A stretch of DNA of 17,029 bases from Opitutaceae bacterium (GTDB taxonomy: Bacteria > Verrucomicrobiota > Verrucomicrobiia > Opitutales > Opitutaceae), in the NCBI GenBank assembly GCA_031254955.1, contig JAIRTK010000484.1, positions 1 to 17,029 of the forward strand, given 5' to 3'. The notes below the pieces were generated by a model that made no database searches, was not told where the DNA came from, and was given only the letters and a program-made list of their open reading frames with translations. The position numbers were made by a program, and so were the translations under genes. Shown piece after piece: positions 2,477 through 17,028 of this stretch; the stretch's first letter is position 1, and each line of letters starts with the position of its first letter.

Positions 2477-2560
2477 GGGGCGTCGCTTGCGACACCCGGC
2501 TTGATAACCGTGAGCCAGCAAAGGCCGTGCTCCAGCAGCGGGCTTCGCAAGCGAAGCCCC
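2477..2560. repeat. Inverted pair of GCTTCGC-palindrome elements (family C)
   Basis: The right copy (2538-2560) contains GGCTTCGCAAGCGAAGCCCC. Read on the minus strand, its core is GGCTTCGCTTGCGAAGCCC, a near-perfect hairpin. The left copy (2477-2500) is a diverged version in the opposite orientation, with core GTCGCTTGCGAC. One T:A stem pair has become G:C in a compensated way and an adjacent pair is mismatched. Together the two form an 84-bp larger palindrome. A third copy, 21 of 23 bases identical to the right copy, lies inside purH at 15994-16016. Mobility is inferred from the copies, not shown. Confidence 0.65.
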
Positions 2561-3840: not shown

Positions 3841-4040
3841 GGCCGTGGCCTTGGCGAACGAGGATTCCTCGAGCCAAACTCGCGGGTGACGGGCGCAGCG
3901 AGGAATCCACGGAGCCGGAAGCAAGACCCCACGCCCCAAAGAGGCGGCAGCGCCGTGCGCGCGCATGCCGGTTTTCCTCTTCCATCTCGTGCCGCGCTGC
4001 CGGCCTTTCATACCATGTCCGAACGAGATTTATATTTTGG

Positions 4041-4103
4041 GTAGGGCGAGGCGTCCCGCCGAGCCGAGGGGTGGCAACGGCTCGGCGGGACGCCTTGCCC
4101 TAC
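4041..4103. repeat. Large hairpin repeat, family A, copy 2
   Basis: The left arm (4041-4065) is identical to the left arm of copy 1 over 25 bases. The right arm (4079-4103) complements it at 24 of 25. The 13-base loop differs from copy 1, and the 11-bp terminal repeats found around copy 1 are absent. The conserved unit is therefore the pair of arms, which suggests selection for, or spread of, the hairpin itself. Confidence 0.8.
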
Positions 4104-4196
4104 CTAGGGCACCAATCCTGCCTAAAGTCTAAAAATGCTTCGGAACTGGTATCAGTGCTTGATTTTCCTTCATCCCAACCCGGTTGGTCTCACGCG

Positions 4197-4244
4197 GATG
4201 TGCAGATGTGCAGATGTGCAGATGTGCGGATGTGCGGATGTGCG
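4197..4244. repeat. Tandem octamer array, (GATGTGCR) x 6
   Basis: Three copies of GATGTGCA are followed directly by three of GATGTGCG, 48 bases in all, then a decayed unit (AAGGTGCT). Such an array can change length by slipped-strand replication. It lies in non-coding DNA about 660 bases from the 3' end of the gene that converges on it, so a phase-variation role is not obvious. Confidence 0.85.
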
Positions 4245-4635
4245 AAGGTGCTTTCAGGGCACGTTGGTCAAATCTCGATTTCCGGTTGTTCCCTCGCGGC
4301 GTTCGAGCGCCACCGGCTCAACGCGGCACCCCTCCGGCGCTGAAATGCAAACCACCACCGTTCCACGGCGCTTGGTTTCGCCTTGGTTCGGCGGAAGTCG
4401 ATTTAAGTCGGTTTAAGTCGCGCCACGGCCTTGGTCTGGCGCCAGCGCGTCCCATAGCCAGCGTGTCCCATGAGTTTTTCCTTGGTTAGCTGAGGTTGCG
4501 CGGAGGGCTTATGGGATTGAGTGGCCTGGGCGACTCGCCCATGAGTCCGGGAGGTTTGCGGCGCGGAGCGCCGTCCACGGGCGAACCGCCTGTGCCACCC
4601 GAACCGCACTGCCACAGGGGCCGCTCTGTCTCGCG

Positions 4636-4830
4636 TTAGAGCCTTTTCGGTTTATAGTGTCGCCAACACAAGAGGTCTGGCGCGGGAGCGCCGGTAGGGA
4701 GGCCTCTCCGAGGCCTCCGCCAGACGGGGCTGGCGGTTTGAATTTTCATGGGGAAATCGGGACGGCATGAGAAATCGAAGCGTTTTCGCGGAGGCCTCTA
4801 CGAGGCCTCCCTACCAGCGCTCCCGCTCCC
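4636..4830. repeat. Composite palindromic element, family B, copy 1
   Basis: A 39-base left unit (4682-4720) has an internal stem GGAGGCCT/AGGCCTCC (4698-4705/4711-4718). It is mirrored by a right unit at 4788-4826 (35 of 39 complementary), enclosing about 67 bases. The left unit is identical over 39 bases to 14853-14891. Similarity between the two loci continues about 45 bases upstream (TTAGAGCCTTTTC against TTAGAACCTTTCC) and into the interior, so the mobile unit is probably about 170-190 bp. No coding capacity. Confidence 0.7.
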
Positions 4831-4905
4831 AAGGAGGAAATCTGCGTTACACCAGCAGCGCGTAACGGCAGTCAGTAATAGGAGCAAAACTCCGCGCCAT
4901 CCGTG

Positions 4906-7900
4906 TCAGGCTTCCACTAATTCGGGCGCGGGGGATCGGGTGGCTTCCACTCGGGCGTTTTGGATCATGAAGTGGAGGCGGTTCAGGAGGTTCGCTTCGC
5001 TGGCGCCGCTGTCGAGGTCGAGGAAGAGGAGGTTCATGCGCGGGTAGAGGTCGCGGATGCGTTTTTCAATGCCTTTGGCCACGAGGTGGTTCGCGATGCA
5101 GCCGAAGGGTTGCAGGCTGACGGCGTTGTGGATGCCGCGGTGCGCGAAGGAGGCGAGTTCGGCGGGGATGAGCCAGCCTTCGCCGTATTGGGCGGCGAGG
5201 TTGATGATGCGCGAGGCGGTCTTCGCTTCCCGGTAGATGTCGGGGAAGGGGTGATGGTGGCGGAAGGCGGAGCCGATGCGGTCAAACTTTTTCAGGTAAT
5301 GGCGCACGAGGGCGTAGGCGAGCGTGTCCATGAAGGGGAGGCCGGTGCGGCGGGCGAGGTTTTGCGCGATGTTGGTGCGGCGGTTGGGGAATTCTTGGAG
5401 AAAGAAGCCGGCGAGGGGGGGGACGACGGGTTCGATGCCTTGGGCGATGAGCCATTCGACGATGTTTTTGTTTCCGATGGAGTTGTACTTGACGTAGATT
5501 TCGCCGACGATGCCGATGCGGGGGACGCGGGTTTGGGCGGGGTCGGCGGCGGCGTTGAAGTCGCGCGCGGCTTCGCGGAGGAGTTGGTAGAGGGCGGGGA
5601 GGTCGCGGCGGGCGACGCAGGCGGCGCCGGCCGCGGCGTAGTCGTCGCGCAGGCGGGCGGAGGCGCCGGGCGCGCGTTCGCGGGGGGCGGTGGCGTTGTG
5701 CATTTGCGCGATGCGGTCGGCGTAGAGGATGGCGGCGATGGTGGGGCGGATGTTGCCGCGCCAGCGCAGTCGGAAGCCGGGTTGGTCGTTGGAGAGGGCG
5801 CCGTCGGCGGTGGCGACGGAGATGACGGGGATGTCCGGATGGCCGGCGGCGACGAGGGCTTTTTTGATGAGGGCGATGTAGTTCGATGCGCGGCATTGTC
5901 CGCCGGTTTGCGTGATGCCGACGGCGGTTTCGCGGGCCGGGTATTGGCCGGAGTTGAGCGCGCGGATGATGTCGCCGACGACGAGGGTGGCGGGGTAGCA
6001 GACTTCGTTGTTGGCGTATTTGAGGCCGTAGTCGATGGAGGTGTCGTTGGCGGGCGGGAGGTTGATGGCGCGGTAGCCCATGAGGCCGAGGATGGCGGGG
6101 ATGAAGGGCGAGTAGGTTTCGGAAAAGAAGGGTGCCAGGATGGTGCGGCGGCGGTCGGCGGCGGTGAAGGCGGGGGTGGTGGAATGGGGAATCGGGGGCG
6201 AGCCGGTGGTGTGAGGGGGGGGAAGCGGCGTCTTGCCGTTTGTCTCTTCGCGCGGGATGGGAAGCGGCGGGATGCCGCTTCCTCTTTGGCCGGCGCGGTA
6301 GGCGAGGCTTTCGACGAGGGAGCGGATGCGGAGGCGGAGGGAGCCGAGGTTGTTGATGTCGTCGATTTTCAGGATGGTGTGGCTTTTGCCGGCGCGGCGG
6401 AGGATGTCGCCGGTTTCGTCGATGACAAAGGCGTCGGGGCCGCAGCCGAAGGAGGTGAGTTGAACGAGGTGGACGTGGGCGGGGGCGCCGGCCACCCAGC
6501 GGGCGGCTTTGAGGATGCGGTTGGTGTAGGCCCATTGGCGCACGGTGCCGGGGTCGGCGGCGGCGGGGTCGTCGTCGAGGCGGACGATGTCTTCGCTGAT
6601 GATGTGCGCGCCGAAGGCCGCGATCATGTCGGCGACTTTGTGCTGGATGAGCGGGTCGGCGTGGTAGGGGCGTCCGGCCAGGAGGATGAGGAGGCGGTTT
6701 TTTTCGGCGGCGGTCGCGGCGATGGCGCGCGCTTTTTCGGCGAGGTCGCGGGCGTGCGCGGTCTGGGCGGCGAGCGCGGCGGCGAAGGCGCGCGGGAAGG
6801 CGCGCGCGGGGAGGCCGAGTGTGTCCACAATGTAACCACGGCAGGCGCGTTCCAGGAGCCGGGTGTCGTGGAAGGTGATGCCGGGGGCGTCGAGCGCGAT
6901 GCCGTGTTTTTTTTCGGGGTCGATGGCGCTGCGGATAACGTCGGAGTAGCCGGTGACGATGGGGCAGTTGAAGGTGTTGACGGAGCGGGTGTCTTCGCGT
7001 TGTTCGTAAACGACGAAGGGCATGAGGATGCGGTCCACTTTGCGGGCGATGAGGTCGTGGATGTGGCCGTGGACGAGTTTGGCGGGGAAGCAGATGTTGT
7101 CGGACATGATGGTGCCCGCGCCTTTTTCGTAGAGGTTGAAGGTGGAGCGTCCGGAGAGGACGACGCGTGCTCCGGCGGTGGTGAGCAGCGCGTGCCAGAA
7201 GGGGTAGTTTTCGTAGTAATTCAGCGCGCGGGGGATGCCGATGGTGAGCGTTTTGCGCTCACTTGATGGTGCTTGGTGAAGGGTGTATGGGGCATGGGGC
7301 GTCGGTGCTCCGGGGGCGGCGGTGTTGGGCGGGGCGGGGGAGTTGGGTGGGGCGGCGGCGGCGTTGGTCGGGGCGGGGGCGGTGTTGAGCGGAGCTGGGG
7401 CGGTGCTGGCGCGGCCAAAGATTTGGGTGTATTTGAAGGAGTAGATGTTTTCGCCTTTGCGGGCGGTGGTCCCGCGGTTGGTGAAGATTTTTTCGCATTT
7501 GTTGCCGGAGAAAAAGGTGTTGGCGTTGGCGAAGGTGTATTTGCGGACGGAGCAGCGGTTTTCGCAGCCGGGGCAGGTGATGTCTTCGGCGGTTTCGCCG
7601 TCCAATGGAGCTTTGATAATGGATAATGTGGAATGCCGCACGGCGGTGTCGGTGTTGGCGGCATTGTTCCTGCGCGCGTGGTGCGCGCTCAGGGCGTGCA
7701 GCGCGGCTCCATAGGCGCCCATGAGTTCGGGCACGTCGGCGAAGAGGACTTCGCGGCCGGTCAGGCGTTCCAGCGCGCGGACGACGGCGTGGTTGCGCAT
7801 GGTGCCGCCTTGCACGACGATGTGCGCGCCGAGGTCGCCGGGGTTTTTCAGTTTCAGGACTTTGTAGAGGCAGTTTTTGACGACGGAGTAGGCGAGGCCG

Positions 7901-9459
7901 GCGGCGATGTCTTGGAGGGTCGAGCCTTCGCGGAGGGATTGCTTGACCTTTGAATTCATGAACACGGTGCAGCGCGTGCCGAGGTCGCAGGGGGCGTCGG
8001 CGGCGCAGGCGAGCGCGGAAAATTCGGCGGCGGTGTGGCGGAGCGAGTTGGCAAAGCCTTCGATGAAGGAGCCGCAGCCGGAGGAGCAGGCTTCGTTGAT
8101 GTCGAGGCGCACGATGGCGCCGTTTTCGATGAAGGCGGCCTTCATGTCTTGTCCGCCGATGTCGAGGATGAAGGTGACCGCGGGGGCGAGTTTGCGCGCG
8201 GCGAGGTAGTGCGCGATGGTCTCGACCAGGCCCAGTTCGAAGTCGAAGGCGGCCTTGATCAGGTCTTCGCCGTAGCCGGTGACGGCGGCGGAGGCGATGC
8301 GGAGCGCGGGGTGGCCGGCGGCGGCGGCTTCGTCGTGGAAGCGCGCGAGGCCTTTGCGCGCGGCGGCGAGCGGGTTGCCGTTGTTTTTTTCGTAGAAGGC
8401 GAACAGGACGCGTTCGCGCGCGTCGATGGCGACGATTTTCGTGGTGGTCGAGCCGGAGTCGATGCCGAGGAAGCAGGTGTCGGTTTCGAGGGCGTCGAGC
8501 GCGACGCGGGGGAGCGCGTGGCGTTGCTTGGCGGTTTTCCACGCGGCGTAGGCGGCGGGGTCGGCGAAGAGTTTTTCGAGGCGGGCGCCGTTCATGGGCG
8601 CCATGCCGGGGCGCGCGGCGGAGAAGCGGGCGAGGAGTTCGTCGATGGTGCCGGCGAGGCGGGCTTGGTCGCGCGCGATGGCGCAGCCGAGAGCGGGGAC
8701 GAGCGCGGCGTTTTCCGGCACGGCGCAGTCGGACTCGGAGATGTTCATCTGCTTCAGGCAGGCGGCGCGCAGGCCGGGGATGAAGGCGAGCGGGCCGCCG
8801 CAGAGCAGCAGGCGGGGCATGATGTCGCGGCCGCGCGCGAGCGTGGTGACGATCTGGAGGGCGACGGCGTGGAAGACGCTCGCGGCGATGTCGGCGGGGG
8901 GGACATTGCGCGCGAGGAGGTTCTGGATGTCGGTCTTGGCGAACACGCCGCAGCGCGAGGCGATGGGGTGCACCGTGCGGGCGTCGCGCGCGAGCGCGTC
9001 GAGTTGCGCGACTTCGACGCCGAGGAGCGTGGCGACTTGGTCGATGAACGCGCCGGTGCCGCCGGCGCAGGAGCCGTTCATGCGGATGTCGGGCGCGCGG
9101 CCGGGCGCGAAGAAAATCATTTTCGCGTCCTCGCCGCCGATGTCGATGAGGGTGCGGATGCCGGGATTGCGCCGGGTGACGACCTCGGCGGCGGCGATGA
9201 CTTCCTGGAGAAACGGGATGCCGTGCGCTTCGGCGAGGCCCATGCCGGCGGAGCCGGTGACGGTGAGCGCGATGCGCGCACCGGCGCCGATGACCGCGCG
9301 GGCACCGGCGAACACGGCGCGCAGGCCGGCGAGGATGTCGGTGTTATGACGGCGGTATTCGGAGAAGACGATGCCGCCGCCGGCAGGCTCGACGATGACG
9401 AGTTTGAGCGTGGTGGAGCCGACATCGAGGCCGGCGTGAAATTCGGCTTGGGGTTGCAT
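4906..9459 (-). CDS. Giant 2-hydroxyacyl-CoA dehydratase activase-type fusion protein (two BcrAD/BadFG ATPase domains, DUF2229-like, HgdB-like)
   Basis: Members of this family are ATP-driven electron activators related to HgdC and BcrA/D, fused to a dehydratase-like part; the substrate of the giant fusions is not established. The first ATPase domain spans about residues 8-265, with GLDVGSTT at 10-17 and the likely [4Fe-4S] ligand C131 in GSCAGGTG. The second spans about 330-600, with GIDSGSTTTK at 332-341 and C458/C462 in NEACSSGCG. A cysteine cluster follows (C629, C632, C636, C655). The DUF2229-like region starts near TIGIPRALNYYENYPFW (739), with C790 and C1006 (SFGCGPD). The C-terminus has NEVCYPA (C1154), TGGQCRASN (C1189) and an HgdB-like VGEIYVKYNS near 1315. 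Two Pro/Ala-rich linkers (about 675-735 and 1055-1110) break the fold, and the second carries repeat DNA. The gene lies 15 nt after the TetR gene and is surely cotranscribed with it. No separate HgdA/HgdB genes adjoin. Soluble and cytoplasmic by appearance. Confidence 0.88.
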   Translation of the reverse strand: MQPQAEFHAGLDVGSTTLKLVIVEPAGGGIVFSEYRRHNTDILAGLRAVFAGARAVIGAGARIALTVTGSAGMGLAEAHGIPFLQEVIAAAEVVTRRNPGIRTLIDIGGEDAKMIFFAPGRAPDIRMNGSCAGGTGAFIDQVATLLGVEVAQLDALARDARTVHPIASRCGVFAKTDIQNLLARNVPPADIAASVFHAVALQIVTTLARGRDIMPRLLLCGGPLAFIPGLRAACLKQMNISESDCAVPENAALVPALGCAIARDQARLAGTIDELLARFSAARPGMAPMNGARLEKLFADPAAYAAWKTAKQRHALPRVALDALETDTCFLGIDSGSTTTKIVAIDARERVLFAFYEKNNGNPLAAARKGLARFHDEAAAAGHPALRIASAAVTGYGEDLIKAAFDFELGLVETIAHYLAARKLAPAVTFILDIGGQDMKAAFIENGAIVRLDINEACSSGCGSFIEGFANSLRHTAAEFSALACAADAPCDLGTRCTVFMNSKVKQSLREGSTLQDIAAGLAYSVVKNCLYKVLKLKNPGDLGAHIVVQGGTMRNHAVVRALERLTGREVLFADVPELMGAYGAALHALSAHHARRNNAANTDTAVRHSTLSIIKAPLDGETAEDITCPGCENRCSVRKYTFANANTFFSGNKCEKIFTNRGTTARKGENIYSFKYTQIFGRASTAPAPLNTAPAPTNAAAAPPNSPAPPNTAAPGAPTPHAPYTLHQAPSSERKTLTIGIPRALNYYENYPFWHALLTTAGARVVLSGRSTFNLYEKGAGTIMSDNICFPAKLVHGHIHDLIARKVDRILMPFVVYEQREDTRSVNTFNCPIVTGYSDVIRSAIDPEKKHGIALDAPGITFHDTRLLERACRGYIVDTLGLPARAFPRAFAAALAAQTAHARDLAEKARAIAATAAEKNRLLILLAGRPYHADPLIQHKVADMIAAFGAHIISEDIVRLDDDPAAADPGTVRQWAYTNRILKAARWVAGAPAHVHLVQLTSFGCGPDAFVIDETGDILRRAGKSHTILKIDDINNLGSLRLRIRSLVESLAYRAGQRGSGIPPLPIPREETNGKTPLPPPHTTGSPPIPHSTTPAFTAADRRRTILAPFFSETYSPFIPAILGLMGYRAINLPPANDTSIDYGLKYANNEVCYPATLVVGDIIRALNSGQYPARETAVGITQTGGQCRASNYIALIKKALVAAGHPDIPVISVATADGALSNDQPGFRLRWRGNIRPTIAAILYADRIAQMHNATAPRERAPGASARLRDDYAAAGAACVARRDLPALYQLLREAARDFNAAADPAQTRVPRIGIVGEIYVKYNSIGNKNIVEWLIAQGIEPVVPPLAGFFLQEFPNRRTNIAQNLARRTGLPFMDTLAYALVRHYLKKFDRIGSAFRHHHPFPDIYREAKTASRIINLAAQYGEGWLIPAELASFAHRGIHNAVSLQPFGCIANHLVAKGIEKRIRDLYPRMNLLFLDLDSGASEANLLNRLHFMIQNARVEATRSPAPELVEA
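6221..6287. repeat. Two in-frame hairpin units inside the 1517-aa gene linker (family D)
   Basis: GGAAGCGGCG-TCTT-GCCGTTT begins at 6221. GGAAGCGGCG starts again at 6260 and continues GGATGCCGCTTCC, whose arms GGAAGCGGC and GCCGCTTCC are perfectly complementary. The two starts are 39 bases (13 codons) apart, so both are read in the same frame; on the coding strand they give SGIPPLP and NGKTPLP. They sit at about residues 1058-1080, in a disordered-looking Pro-rich linker between conserved domains. A similar hairpin, GCGGCAGGATGCCGGCGC, lies in non-coding DNA near 13006-13023. Confidence 0.6.
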
Positions 9460-14809: not shown

Positions 14810-14970
14810 ACCTTTCCTATTTACTCTGTCGCATTGGAGACGGCAGTTTGGCGCGGGAGCGCCGGTAGGGAGGCCTCTCCGAGGCCTCCGCCGGGCGGAG
14901 TGACCGATTGAGTATTTTCTTGGCAAGTCGGGGCGTGGTGACAGCGGCCTCGGAGAGACCTTCCTACCGC
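14804..14970. repeat. Composite palindromic element, family B, copy 2
   Basis: The left unit 14853-14891 is identical to 4682-4720 over 39 bases. The right arm 14946-14969 complements 14863-14886 at 22 of 24 positions. Upstream and interior sequence also resembles copy 1 (TTGAGTATTTTCTTGGCAAG against TTGAATTTTCATGGGGAAA), showing that the whole unit, and not only the hairpin, is repeated. Confidence 0.7.
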
Positions 14971-15255: not shown

Positions 15256-17028
15256 ATGGAAAAACTCGCCCTCCTCTCCGTGAGTGACAAATCCGGCCTT
15301 GTCGAGTTTGCGACGGCCCTCGTGCAACGCCACGGCTTCCGCCTCCTCTCCACCGGCGGCACCGCCAGGCTACTGGCTGAAAAAGGCCTGCCCGTCACCG
15401 AAGTCAGCCAGCACACCGGCTTCCCCGAAATCATGGAAGGCCGCGTGAAAACCCTTCACCCCAGAATCCACGGCGGCCTCCTCTGCCGCCGCGACAAACC
15501 CGGCCACCTGGCCCAGGCGCAAGCCAACGACATCGCCATGATCGACCTCGTGGTGGTCAATCTTTACCCCTTCGAGCAAACCATCGCCAAACCCGGCGTC
15601 GCCTTCGAGGAAGCCATCGAAAACATCGACATCGGCGGCCCCTCCATGCTGCGCAGCGCGGCCAAGAATCACGAAAGCGTCACCGTGGTCTGCGACCCCG
15701 CCGACTACGGCTCCGTGCTCGCCGCCCTCGACCCAACCGCCACCGCCCCCGCGACGCTCGCCGCGCTCCGCCGCAAGCTCGCGCTCAAAGTCTTCCAGCG
15801 CACCGCCGGCTACGACGCCGCCATCGCCGCCTACCTCGAAAAACAAACCACCACCACCGCCACAGCCGCCACCCCAGCCGTCATCCCCCTCGCTGCCGCC
15901 GCTCCTGCCACCATCGCCCCTGACGCTACCCTCTCCGCCACCGCCGCCGCCATCACCACCCCGGCCACCGCCGCCGCCATCCCCCTCCCAACTGGAGCTT
16001 CGCTTACGAAGCCCGCCGCCATCACCGCCCCCACCGCCACACCAGCCCCCACCACCGACGCCCCCCCCGACCTCGACGCCATCGCCGGCCTGCCCGCCAC
16101 CCTCACGCTCACCCTCCCCAAAGCCCAGTCCCTTCGCTACGGCGAAAACCCGCACCAGCACGCCGCGCTCTACGGCACCTTCCACGACCATTTCCAGCAG
16201 CTCCAAGGCAAGGAACTCTCCTACAACAACATTCTCGACATCACCTCGGCCACCCACCTCATCGGCGAATTCGAGCACCCCACCGTCGCCATCCTCAAAC
16301 ACACCAACCCCTGCGGCGTCGCCAGCGCCGGGACGCTCGCCGAAGCCTGGGAAAACGCGCTCGCCACCGACCGGCAGGCGCCCTTCGGCGGCATCATTGC
16401 GGTCAACCGCACGCTCGACGCCGGCCTCGCGGAACGCATCAAGGAAATCTTCACCGAAGTCATCATTGCCCCGCGCTTCAGCGACGACGCGCTCGCGCTC
16501 TTCTCCAAAAAGAAAAACCTCCGCCTCATGGTGGCCAAAGCCGCCCCCGGCGCCGACTCGCTCCTCGACATACGCTCCGTCGTCGGCGGCCTCCTCGTGC
16601 AGGACCGCAACACGCGGCTTCTCGGACGGCAGGCCGATCTCAAAGTCGTGACCCGGCGCCAGCCCGACGCGGCGGAATGGGCCTCGATGCTGTTCGGCTG
16701 GCGGGTCTGCAAACACGTCAAGTCAAACGCCATCGTTTACTGTCGCGGCGAACAGACGCTCGGCATCGGCGCGGGCCAGATGGCGCGCGTGGACAGCTCG
16801 CGCATCGCGGTCTGGAAAGCGGGCGAAGCCGGGCTTGACCTGCGCGGCTCGGTGGTGGCGAGCGAGGCGATGTTCCCCTTTGCCGACGGCCTCATCGCCG
16901 CCGCCGACGCCGGTGCCACCTCGGCCATCCAGCCCGGCGGCTCCGTGCGCGACGCCGAAGTCATCGCCGCCGCCGACGAACGCGGCCTGGCCATGGTCTT
17001 CACCGGCATCCGGCATTTCAAACACTAG
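15256..17028 (+). CDS. purH: Bifunctional AICAR formyltransferase / IMP cyclohydrolase with an expanded linker
   Basis: Carries out the last two steps of de novo purine synthesis, AICAR to FAICAR (10-formyl-THF) and FAICAR to IMP. The ATG at 15256 starts [19 protein letters not shown], the usual N-terminus; the frame is open 84 bases further up but only with C/T-rich leader sequence. The IMP cyclohydrolase domain covers residues 1-195, with [10 protein letters not shown] at 65-74 and [15 protein letters not shown]. The transformylase covers about 280-590, with [27 protein letters not shown] (catalytic-type K-H), [21 protein letters not shown] and the terminal FTGIRHFKH. It is 590 aa against about 529 in E. 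coli. The excess lies in residues 197-276, an Ala/Thr/Pro linker between the domains that holds a copy of the family C palindrome. The stop TAG is at 17026-17028, so the gene is complete. No Shine-Dalgarno sequence; a C/T-rich leader precedes it. Confidence 0.97.
15994..16016. repeat. Family C palindrome embedded in frame in purH
   Basis: GCTTCGCTTACGAAGCCCGC within this span matches the minus-strand reading of the intergenic copy at 2538-2560 at 21 of 23 bases. It encodes GASLTKPA (residues about 247-254), the only Lys-containing, non-repetitive island in the Ala/Thr/Pro linker. Insertion into a tolerant interdomain linker is the simplest reading. Confidence 0.65.

Follow-up and report, generated by a model that had tools for sequence, protein, structure and literature searches.

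Rickettsia palindromic elements (RPEs), as reviewed in the accessible part of PMC2229807, are elements of 105-146 bp that are found in Rickettsia and can be fused in frame. REPINs were defined in PMC3116915 and, in the accessible part of that study, they are overwhelmingly extragenic, with only 14 16-mers overlapping genes and with 1,067 occurrences of the most abundant ones. As for GTAG repeats, the accessible text of PMC3733652 reports that GTAG ends furnish TAG stop codons and that the highest number of intragenic repeats of this type is found in Opitutus terrae. This species belongs to the Opitutaceae, which is also the family of Termitidicoccus and strain TAV5. The same accessible text on intragenic REPs does not name purH.

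The locus considered here lies in a window of 17,029 nucleotides, the whole stretch of DNA analysed, from a termite-gut bacterium of this family, in whose genome a short mobile hairpin is scattered and has landed in genes without breaking them, a purine-synthesis gene included. The purine-synthesis gene is purH (15256-17028, plus strand, 590 aa; NF002049, 704 bits; TIGR00355, 640 bits, both above cut-off). A segment of its interdomain linker very probably derives from a GTAG-type REP that arrived long ago, has since become somewhat worn, has survived in frame and is most likely neutral; the family would be spread by a REP-associated tyrosine transposase (RAYT).

A preliminary description of the window had pointed to a resemblance between positions 15994-16016 (GGAGCTTCGCTTACGAAGCCCGC) and an intergenic palindrome at 2538-2560 (GCGGGCTTCGCAAGCGAAGCCCC). 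The agreement at 21 of 23 bases that it reported was recovered when the reverse complement of the palindrome, GGGGCTTCGCTTGCGAAGCCCGC, was used. As purH starts at 15256, position 15994 is the first base of codon 247, and 15994-16014 (plus strand) correspond exactly to codons 247-253, GGA GCT TCG CTT ACG AAG CCC, translated as GASLTKP. This REP-type hairpin differs from the 21-base consensus at two positions. The GGG to GGA change is silent (Gly) and breaks one stem pair, while the GCG to ACG change replaces Ala by Thr and costs no stem pair because the predicted folds place it in the loop, which has four bases. The PurH copy still folds as single-stranded DNA with a predicted energy of -7.3 kcal/mol, a value equalled by one of 200 shuffles, compared with -9.5 kcal/mol predicted for the intergenic copy. 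The proposed extension of the match beyond the stem proved weak; both copies agree at CCCG(C), but upstream PurH has AACT before GGAG where the family has TGTA before GGGG. The GTAG tag is therefore absent, so that the PurH copy taken alone lacks one defining feature of the REP family. In addition, a search of the linker for a second inverted arm gave a best inverted match of 16/25 that lay on the same hairpin, which indicates a single copy. The PurH copy is worn, with one change that breaks a stem pair and with its GTAG and partner arm missing, and descent from a REP copy is its most likely origin.

The hairpin sits in an expanded Ala/Thr/Pro-rich linker (residues 198-271; 15847-16068, plus strand), recognized from its spacing relative to that of relatives. 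The distance from.YD..I to RYGENP is 110 aa in the window PurH, while 11 loci among the 16 measured have 40 aa. The parser covered 30 loci, printed no linker for 10 of them, and in four others (L039, L042, L045 and L060) started at a more distant motif, so that their value of 80 is no linker length. In the same way, 109 of the 120 homologues among the matches listed in a protein search have 39 residues against 109 in the query, with a ruler that is one residue shorter. The extra stretch, first put at about 65 residues, amounts to approximately 70, of which the hairpin accounts for only 7. The idea that these extra residues are the element itself was rejected, since the linkers of P0004, G001 and Termitidicoccus mucosus (G002, same genus as the host) rule against it. 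Most of the stretch is low-complexity sequence. The Ala/Thr-rich linker measures 72 residues in P0004, a metagenome PurH that aligns with 55% of the query at 91% identity, and 93 residues in genome G001, and neither contains the hairpin peptide, which indicates that low-complexity linker growth occurs in this lineage independently of the REP. Relatives show the linker without the element, and in most of those measured it is short. The GASL.KP motif was present in one of the 120 PurH homologues among the matches listed, the query itself, and this set gives no sign of a linker peptide conserved in distant relatives. Since the linker is of low complexity, the ends of the insertion cannot be defined and a filled/empty proof is absent for purH itself.

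The PurH linker of an Ereboglobus (G004) carries a different palindromic element in frame, which is composite and whose hairpin is matched 19 times in that genome in the forward direction with at most two mismatches. The palindrome CATGGGCGACTCGCCCATG has an exact in-frame copy in this linker (locus L037, 1461-1479), inside the composite element repeated in G004, and a one-mismatch copy at window positions 4525-4543. P0004 also contains an extra stretch, TTTAAIGTDRNVCPTLAATATPAS, between DPADY and ALRR of the first PurH domain, which is known from protein alone and may be another captured repeat. Elsewhere in the window, a 1517-aa acyl-CoA dehydratase activase-like protein (4906-9459) has a Pro/Ala/Thr-rich insert (PAPLNTAPAPTNAAAAPPNS...) in a low-complexity style similar to that of the PurH linker.

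The hairpin belongs to an abundant family. The host genome (G000) comprises 3.58 Mb in 574 contigs and is 68.67% complete. When up to three mismatches were allowed, the 21-mer matched it at 328 places in the forward and 330 in the reverse direction, which are read as about 330 sites because the 21-mer is nearly its own reverse complement; the reversed pattern, used as control, gave none at this threshold in the whole 3.58 Mb. At least 100 copies are exact. Neither of the two outcomes that the preliminary description had named as refuting was observed, the copies being numerous and the linker peptide not conserved. A codon-usage test flagged as coding none of the 100 exact copies listed, 17 of which are hardly judgeable as they lie less than 100 bases from the end of their stretch. 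The test was trained on six window genes; it flags 867 of 1200 positions inside them and none of 400 between genes. The family is mostly extragenic.

With at most one mismatch allowed, matches to the 20-base hairpin GGGCTTCGCNNNCGAAGCCC numbered (forward/reverse) 263/259 in the host, 16/18 in T. mucosus, 16/16 in strain TAV5 (G007) and 10/6 in G001. Matches were found in 14 of 57 genomes, and the 53 genomes other than these four hold 0-2 per strand; each of the ten minor ones totals one to three places, and in four of these ten the control reaches the same level. In parallel, an exact scan of named genomes returned at least 8 stretches, 4 in Geminisphaera colitermitum, 3 in a Verrucomicrobiota MAG and 1 in a Kiritimatiellae MAG.

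Aligned copies read ATGTAG and then the hairpin, with the consensus ATGTAGGGGCTTCGCTTGCGAAGCCCGTTGC. The family consensus is ATGTAG followed by GGGCTTCGC..., and ATGTA precedes GGG in most of 135 distinct copies, a set that was partly chosen by its flanks. Tallies of 74, 138 and 135 distinct copies refer to overlapping loci under different de-duplication rules. Copies beyond contig C254 were found through flank-selected patterns only, which miss those with G then A/G at +7/+8 after the stem, so more genic copies may exist. In the window, sequence and 21-mer search place the intergenic member of the family on the minus strand at 2540-2563, with its hairpin at 2540-2559 and its GTAG tag (CTAC on the plus strand) at 2560-2563. 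It lies within a larger composite repeat of class 1 (2444-2605) with near-inverted ends ATACCCATTACCAATGAA ... TTCACTGGGAAAGGGTA and flanks similar to those of the family consensus, the opposite end of which bears a sister hairpin, GGGGCGTCGCTTGCGACACCC (2477-2497, plus strand), with a weak predicted fold (z -0.42). Many copies are found within larger composites, either of class 1 with ATACCC.TTCCCAGTGAA ends or of class 2 with other flanks, so that there are two or more kinds of composite around the hairpin module. Inverted hairpin pairs separated by a spacer are present on both flanks of the RAYT gene and in an insert in ygiQ. The family is of the GTAG-type REP/REPIN.

Other repeats were observed in the same window. 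A second GTAG-hairpin family, GTAG-GGAGGCCTCTCCGAGGCCTCC, is present at 4694-4718 and 4790-4814 (an inverted pair within 4675-4832) and at 14865-14889. A further palindromic repeat, GGTAGGGCGAGGCGTCCCGCCGAGCCG, and its inverse form inverted pairs at 2649-2717 and 4040-4104, and a tandem 8-base repeat, GCAGATGT-like, lies between the main genes at 4194-4251.

A likely transposase is encoded in the host genome at C529:8470-9024 (NF047646, E 2.2e-19; PF01797, E 9e-8). This RAYT scores 69.8 bits with NF047646, under the NCBIfam curated cut-off of 80, and its protein contains one H-x-H. The gene has an inverted pair of the family hairpin on each side and its reading frame continues through its own downstream pair. 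Relatives at E<=1e-10 were found in 22 of 57 genomes, the host among them. When 30 RAYT-like loci were examined, the family hairpin was seen at the host's own locus; among the 29 others, GTAG/CTAC hairpins with other stems lie near 13, for instance in G004, and a simple test revealed no GTAG hairpin at the remaining 16. G001 and TAV5 contain hairpin copies and no RAYT was found in them at E<=1e-10 with the host query, which argues against a strict link between hairpin and RAYT. The architecture of the locus together with a filled/empty site pair in ygiQ suggests that the host RAYT moves this REP family.

Three internal in-frame cases were found in the host genome, purH, metG and ygiQ. In metG (TIGR00398, above cut-off), an exact GTAG-tagged copy lies in frame inside an Ala/Thr-rich insert, and after it an Ala/Thr/Asp block is repeated in tandem. 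The MetG linker could be read in 26 of 30 loci; it is 134 aa long in the host and 72-103 aa in the other 25. The REP peptide is found in one of the 120 homologues among the matches listed, the query. The ygiQ gene (TIGR03904, 762 bits, above cut-off) carries a whole inverted pair of 138 bp, or 46 codons, tagged GCAG. The corresponding site is empty in T. mucosus, where 435 of 465 flanking bases are the same, and G001 shows there an Ala-rich expansion without REP; the linker parser gave five rows for 26 loci, from these three genomes, and the other genomes were judged from gapped matches. The mobility of the family is thus supported by the filled and empty ygiQ sites, and not for purH.

Copies were also found at gene ends. 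The NuoI-like protein encoded upstream of the RAYT gene, a name that relies on profile models scoring below their curated cut-offs, runs through the upstream hairpin pair and reaches 297 aa, while homologues among the 120 matches listed have 186-264 aa and the closest listed, from T. mucosus, has 213. The VGASLAKP motif of its tail is shared by two of the 120 homologues listed, from Geminisphaera colitermitum and an Opitutaceae MAG, and the nuoI copy retains GTAG. RlmN (TIGR00048, above cut-off) has a REP-derived C-terminal tail and takes its stop codon from the ATGTAG of the next hairpin. A REP-like place may also extend a C-terminus (GASLAKPVV) at locus L236 of T. mucosus.

Near gene starts, an insertion in BatD (PF13584) is not claimed, as the copy falls at about residue 12 of the open frame, counted from its first Met, and may precede the true start. 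Capture in two genes that we take to be sufD and der was rejected, since the copy precedes the likely start and looks intergenic. A REP is found just upstream of the presumed der both in the host (contig C485, near 4438) and in T. mucosus (C1, near 2219614; locus L122), which indicates that some REP positions are common to the two species. Finally, a relaxed pattern applied to 38 loci (35 from G001, T. mucosus and TAV5, and 3 from the host) returned 47 hairpin-like places with no clear internal in-frame REP, and several of them were plainly ordinary coding sequence; the codon model used for these loci had been trained on the host.

These observations are best accounted for if the REP family is spread through the genome by a RAYT, usually with an inverted pair (REPIN) as the moving unit. 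A RAYT is a single-strand transposase of IS200/IS605-like type, whose presumed target is the hairpin with its GTAG tag. Most copies would end up between genes, and genic ones would persist only if the frame is kept and if the site is a flexible linker or a tail. The bare 21-base hairpin is stop-free in all six frames and measures seven codons, which makes survival inside genes possible; when the tag is added, one frame meets TAG. The PurH copy would have fallen into or beside the Ala/Thr/Pro-rich linker and then been translated with it, and we infer that it came by the RAYT route. The most likely and simplest reading is that this hairpin would be neutral and tolerated in a flexible linker. It may tentatively be proposed that the family is a recurrent supplier of linker peptides in termite-gut Opitutaceae, on the ground that the bare hairpin is open in every frame. 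Capture would then have been repeated at the same tolerant enzyme spots in different genera, as in the NuoI tail of the host, of Geminisphaera colitermitum and of one further Opitutaceae bacterium, and in the PurH linker, which holds this REP in the host and another palindromic element in Ereboglobus, the read-through of the RAYT into its own flanking pair included.

The PurH hairpin could be derived from a REP and have been copied from another one by recombination or template switching and not by transposition, a possible if doubtful route. Such copying would explain the missing GTAG and second arm, PurH having the hairpin alone with different bases at the tag position and no inverted partner, and the module is found in distinct composite surroundings as if it travelled apart from its neighbours. 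However, GTAG is retained in metG and nuoI and GCAG in the ygiQ pair, which is a clean insertion of the unit, so that transposition-like capture does happen in this genome, and later mutational loss of the tag is a simple alternative for purH. That a GC-rich, repetitive linker acquired a hairpin-like 21-mer by chance is strongly disfavoured, its probability being close to negligible. An order-0 composition model predicts 6.5e-5 matches at up to two mismatches per window (both strands) and 0.014 per 3.58 Mb genome, and the reversed control found none. The linker is indeed of low complexity and the match was first picked out by eye, which entails a look-elsewhere effect, but the hairpin itself does not have this low-complexity character, and neither P0004 nor G001 shows its peptide in the expanded linker.

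Retention for a function, for example as an mRNA structure that delays translation at the domain junction or as a spacer peptide under selection, appears very unlikely. It would fit with the predicted folding of the PurH hairpin, with the action on RNA proposed for gene-adjacent REPs in the accessible text of PMC3733652, and with the different palindromic element in the Ereboglobus linker, which implies that the site was used more than once. Yet the copy has lost a stem pair to one of its two mismatches, the great majority of listed PurH homologues (109/120) do with a 39-residue spacer and no insert, and the other insert-bearing proteins are unrelated. Only slightly less improbable, and mostly refuted as a general rule, is the view that the hairpin seeded the whole expansion, with REP insertion followed by replication slippage and Ala/Thr/Pro repeats. 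The same pairing is seen in metG, where the REP precedes a tandem block, but the PurH linkers of P0004 and G001 and the YgiQ linker of G001 are long and of low complexity without the REP peptide, and so is the Pro/Ala-rich insert of the window protein at 4906-9459. A worn REP copy thus remains the preferred reading of the PurH segment.

In the host, several conserved enzymes carry natural in-frame insertions. For one of them a sister species has a closely related allele that is empty, and the host genome also encodes a likely transposase. Such a set allows the cost of a REP insertion to the protein to be measured, as well as the filtering of intragenic transposition by selection. Moreover, the PurH and MetG linkers of this lineage tolerate large inserts, which is relevant to annotation.

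RPEs, as described in the accessible part of PMC2229807, have in common with this family a palindromic repeat that is in frame in conserved protein genes and apparently tolerated. The RPE-like insertion suggested in the preliminary description is indeed seen in metG, in ygiQ and, as the best reading, in purH. Membership of the RPEs was rejected, since the GTAG tag and the RAYT fit the REP/REPIN better; RPEs, compared here by description and not by sequence, are 105-146 bp long and that text shows no RAYT link. The REPIN of PMC3116915, in its accessible part, is alike in that the moving unit is an inverted REP doublet with a spacer, as in the clean 138-bp ygiQ insertion, and differs in that some of the host copies are inside conserved genes. 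The closest likeness in features is with the GTAG REPs and REPtrons of PMC3733652 which, in the accessible text, share a short GTAG-tagged hairpin, high copy number, inverted pairs and a repeat-flanked RAYT gene, are mainly intergenic with some wholly within ORFs, and have a REP end that gives a TAG stop, here in rlmN. The present case differs by its host genus and by a PurH copy without GTAG, and the likeness is judged on these features. No title on this REP family in Termitidicoccus or on purH was found among the open-licence papers listed, which is no proof of absence. The preliminary description took in-frame capture to be poorly documented in bacteria of this kind, which the report of intragenic GTAG repeats in Opitutus terrae contradicts. 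Intragenic GTAG REPs being already known in the same bacterial family, the kind is not new, and this REP family and its hosts are a fresh case of it.
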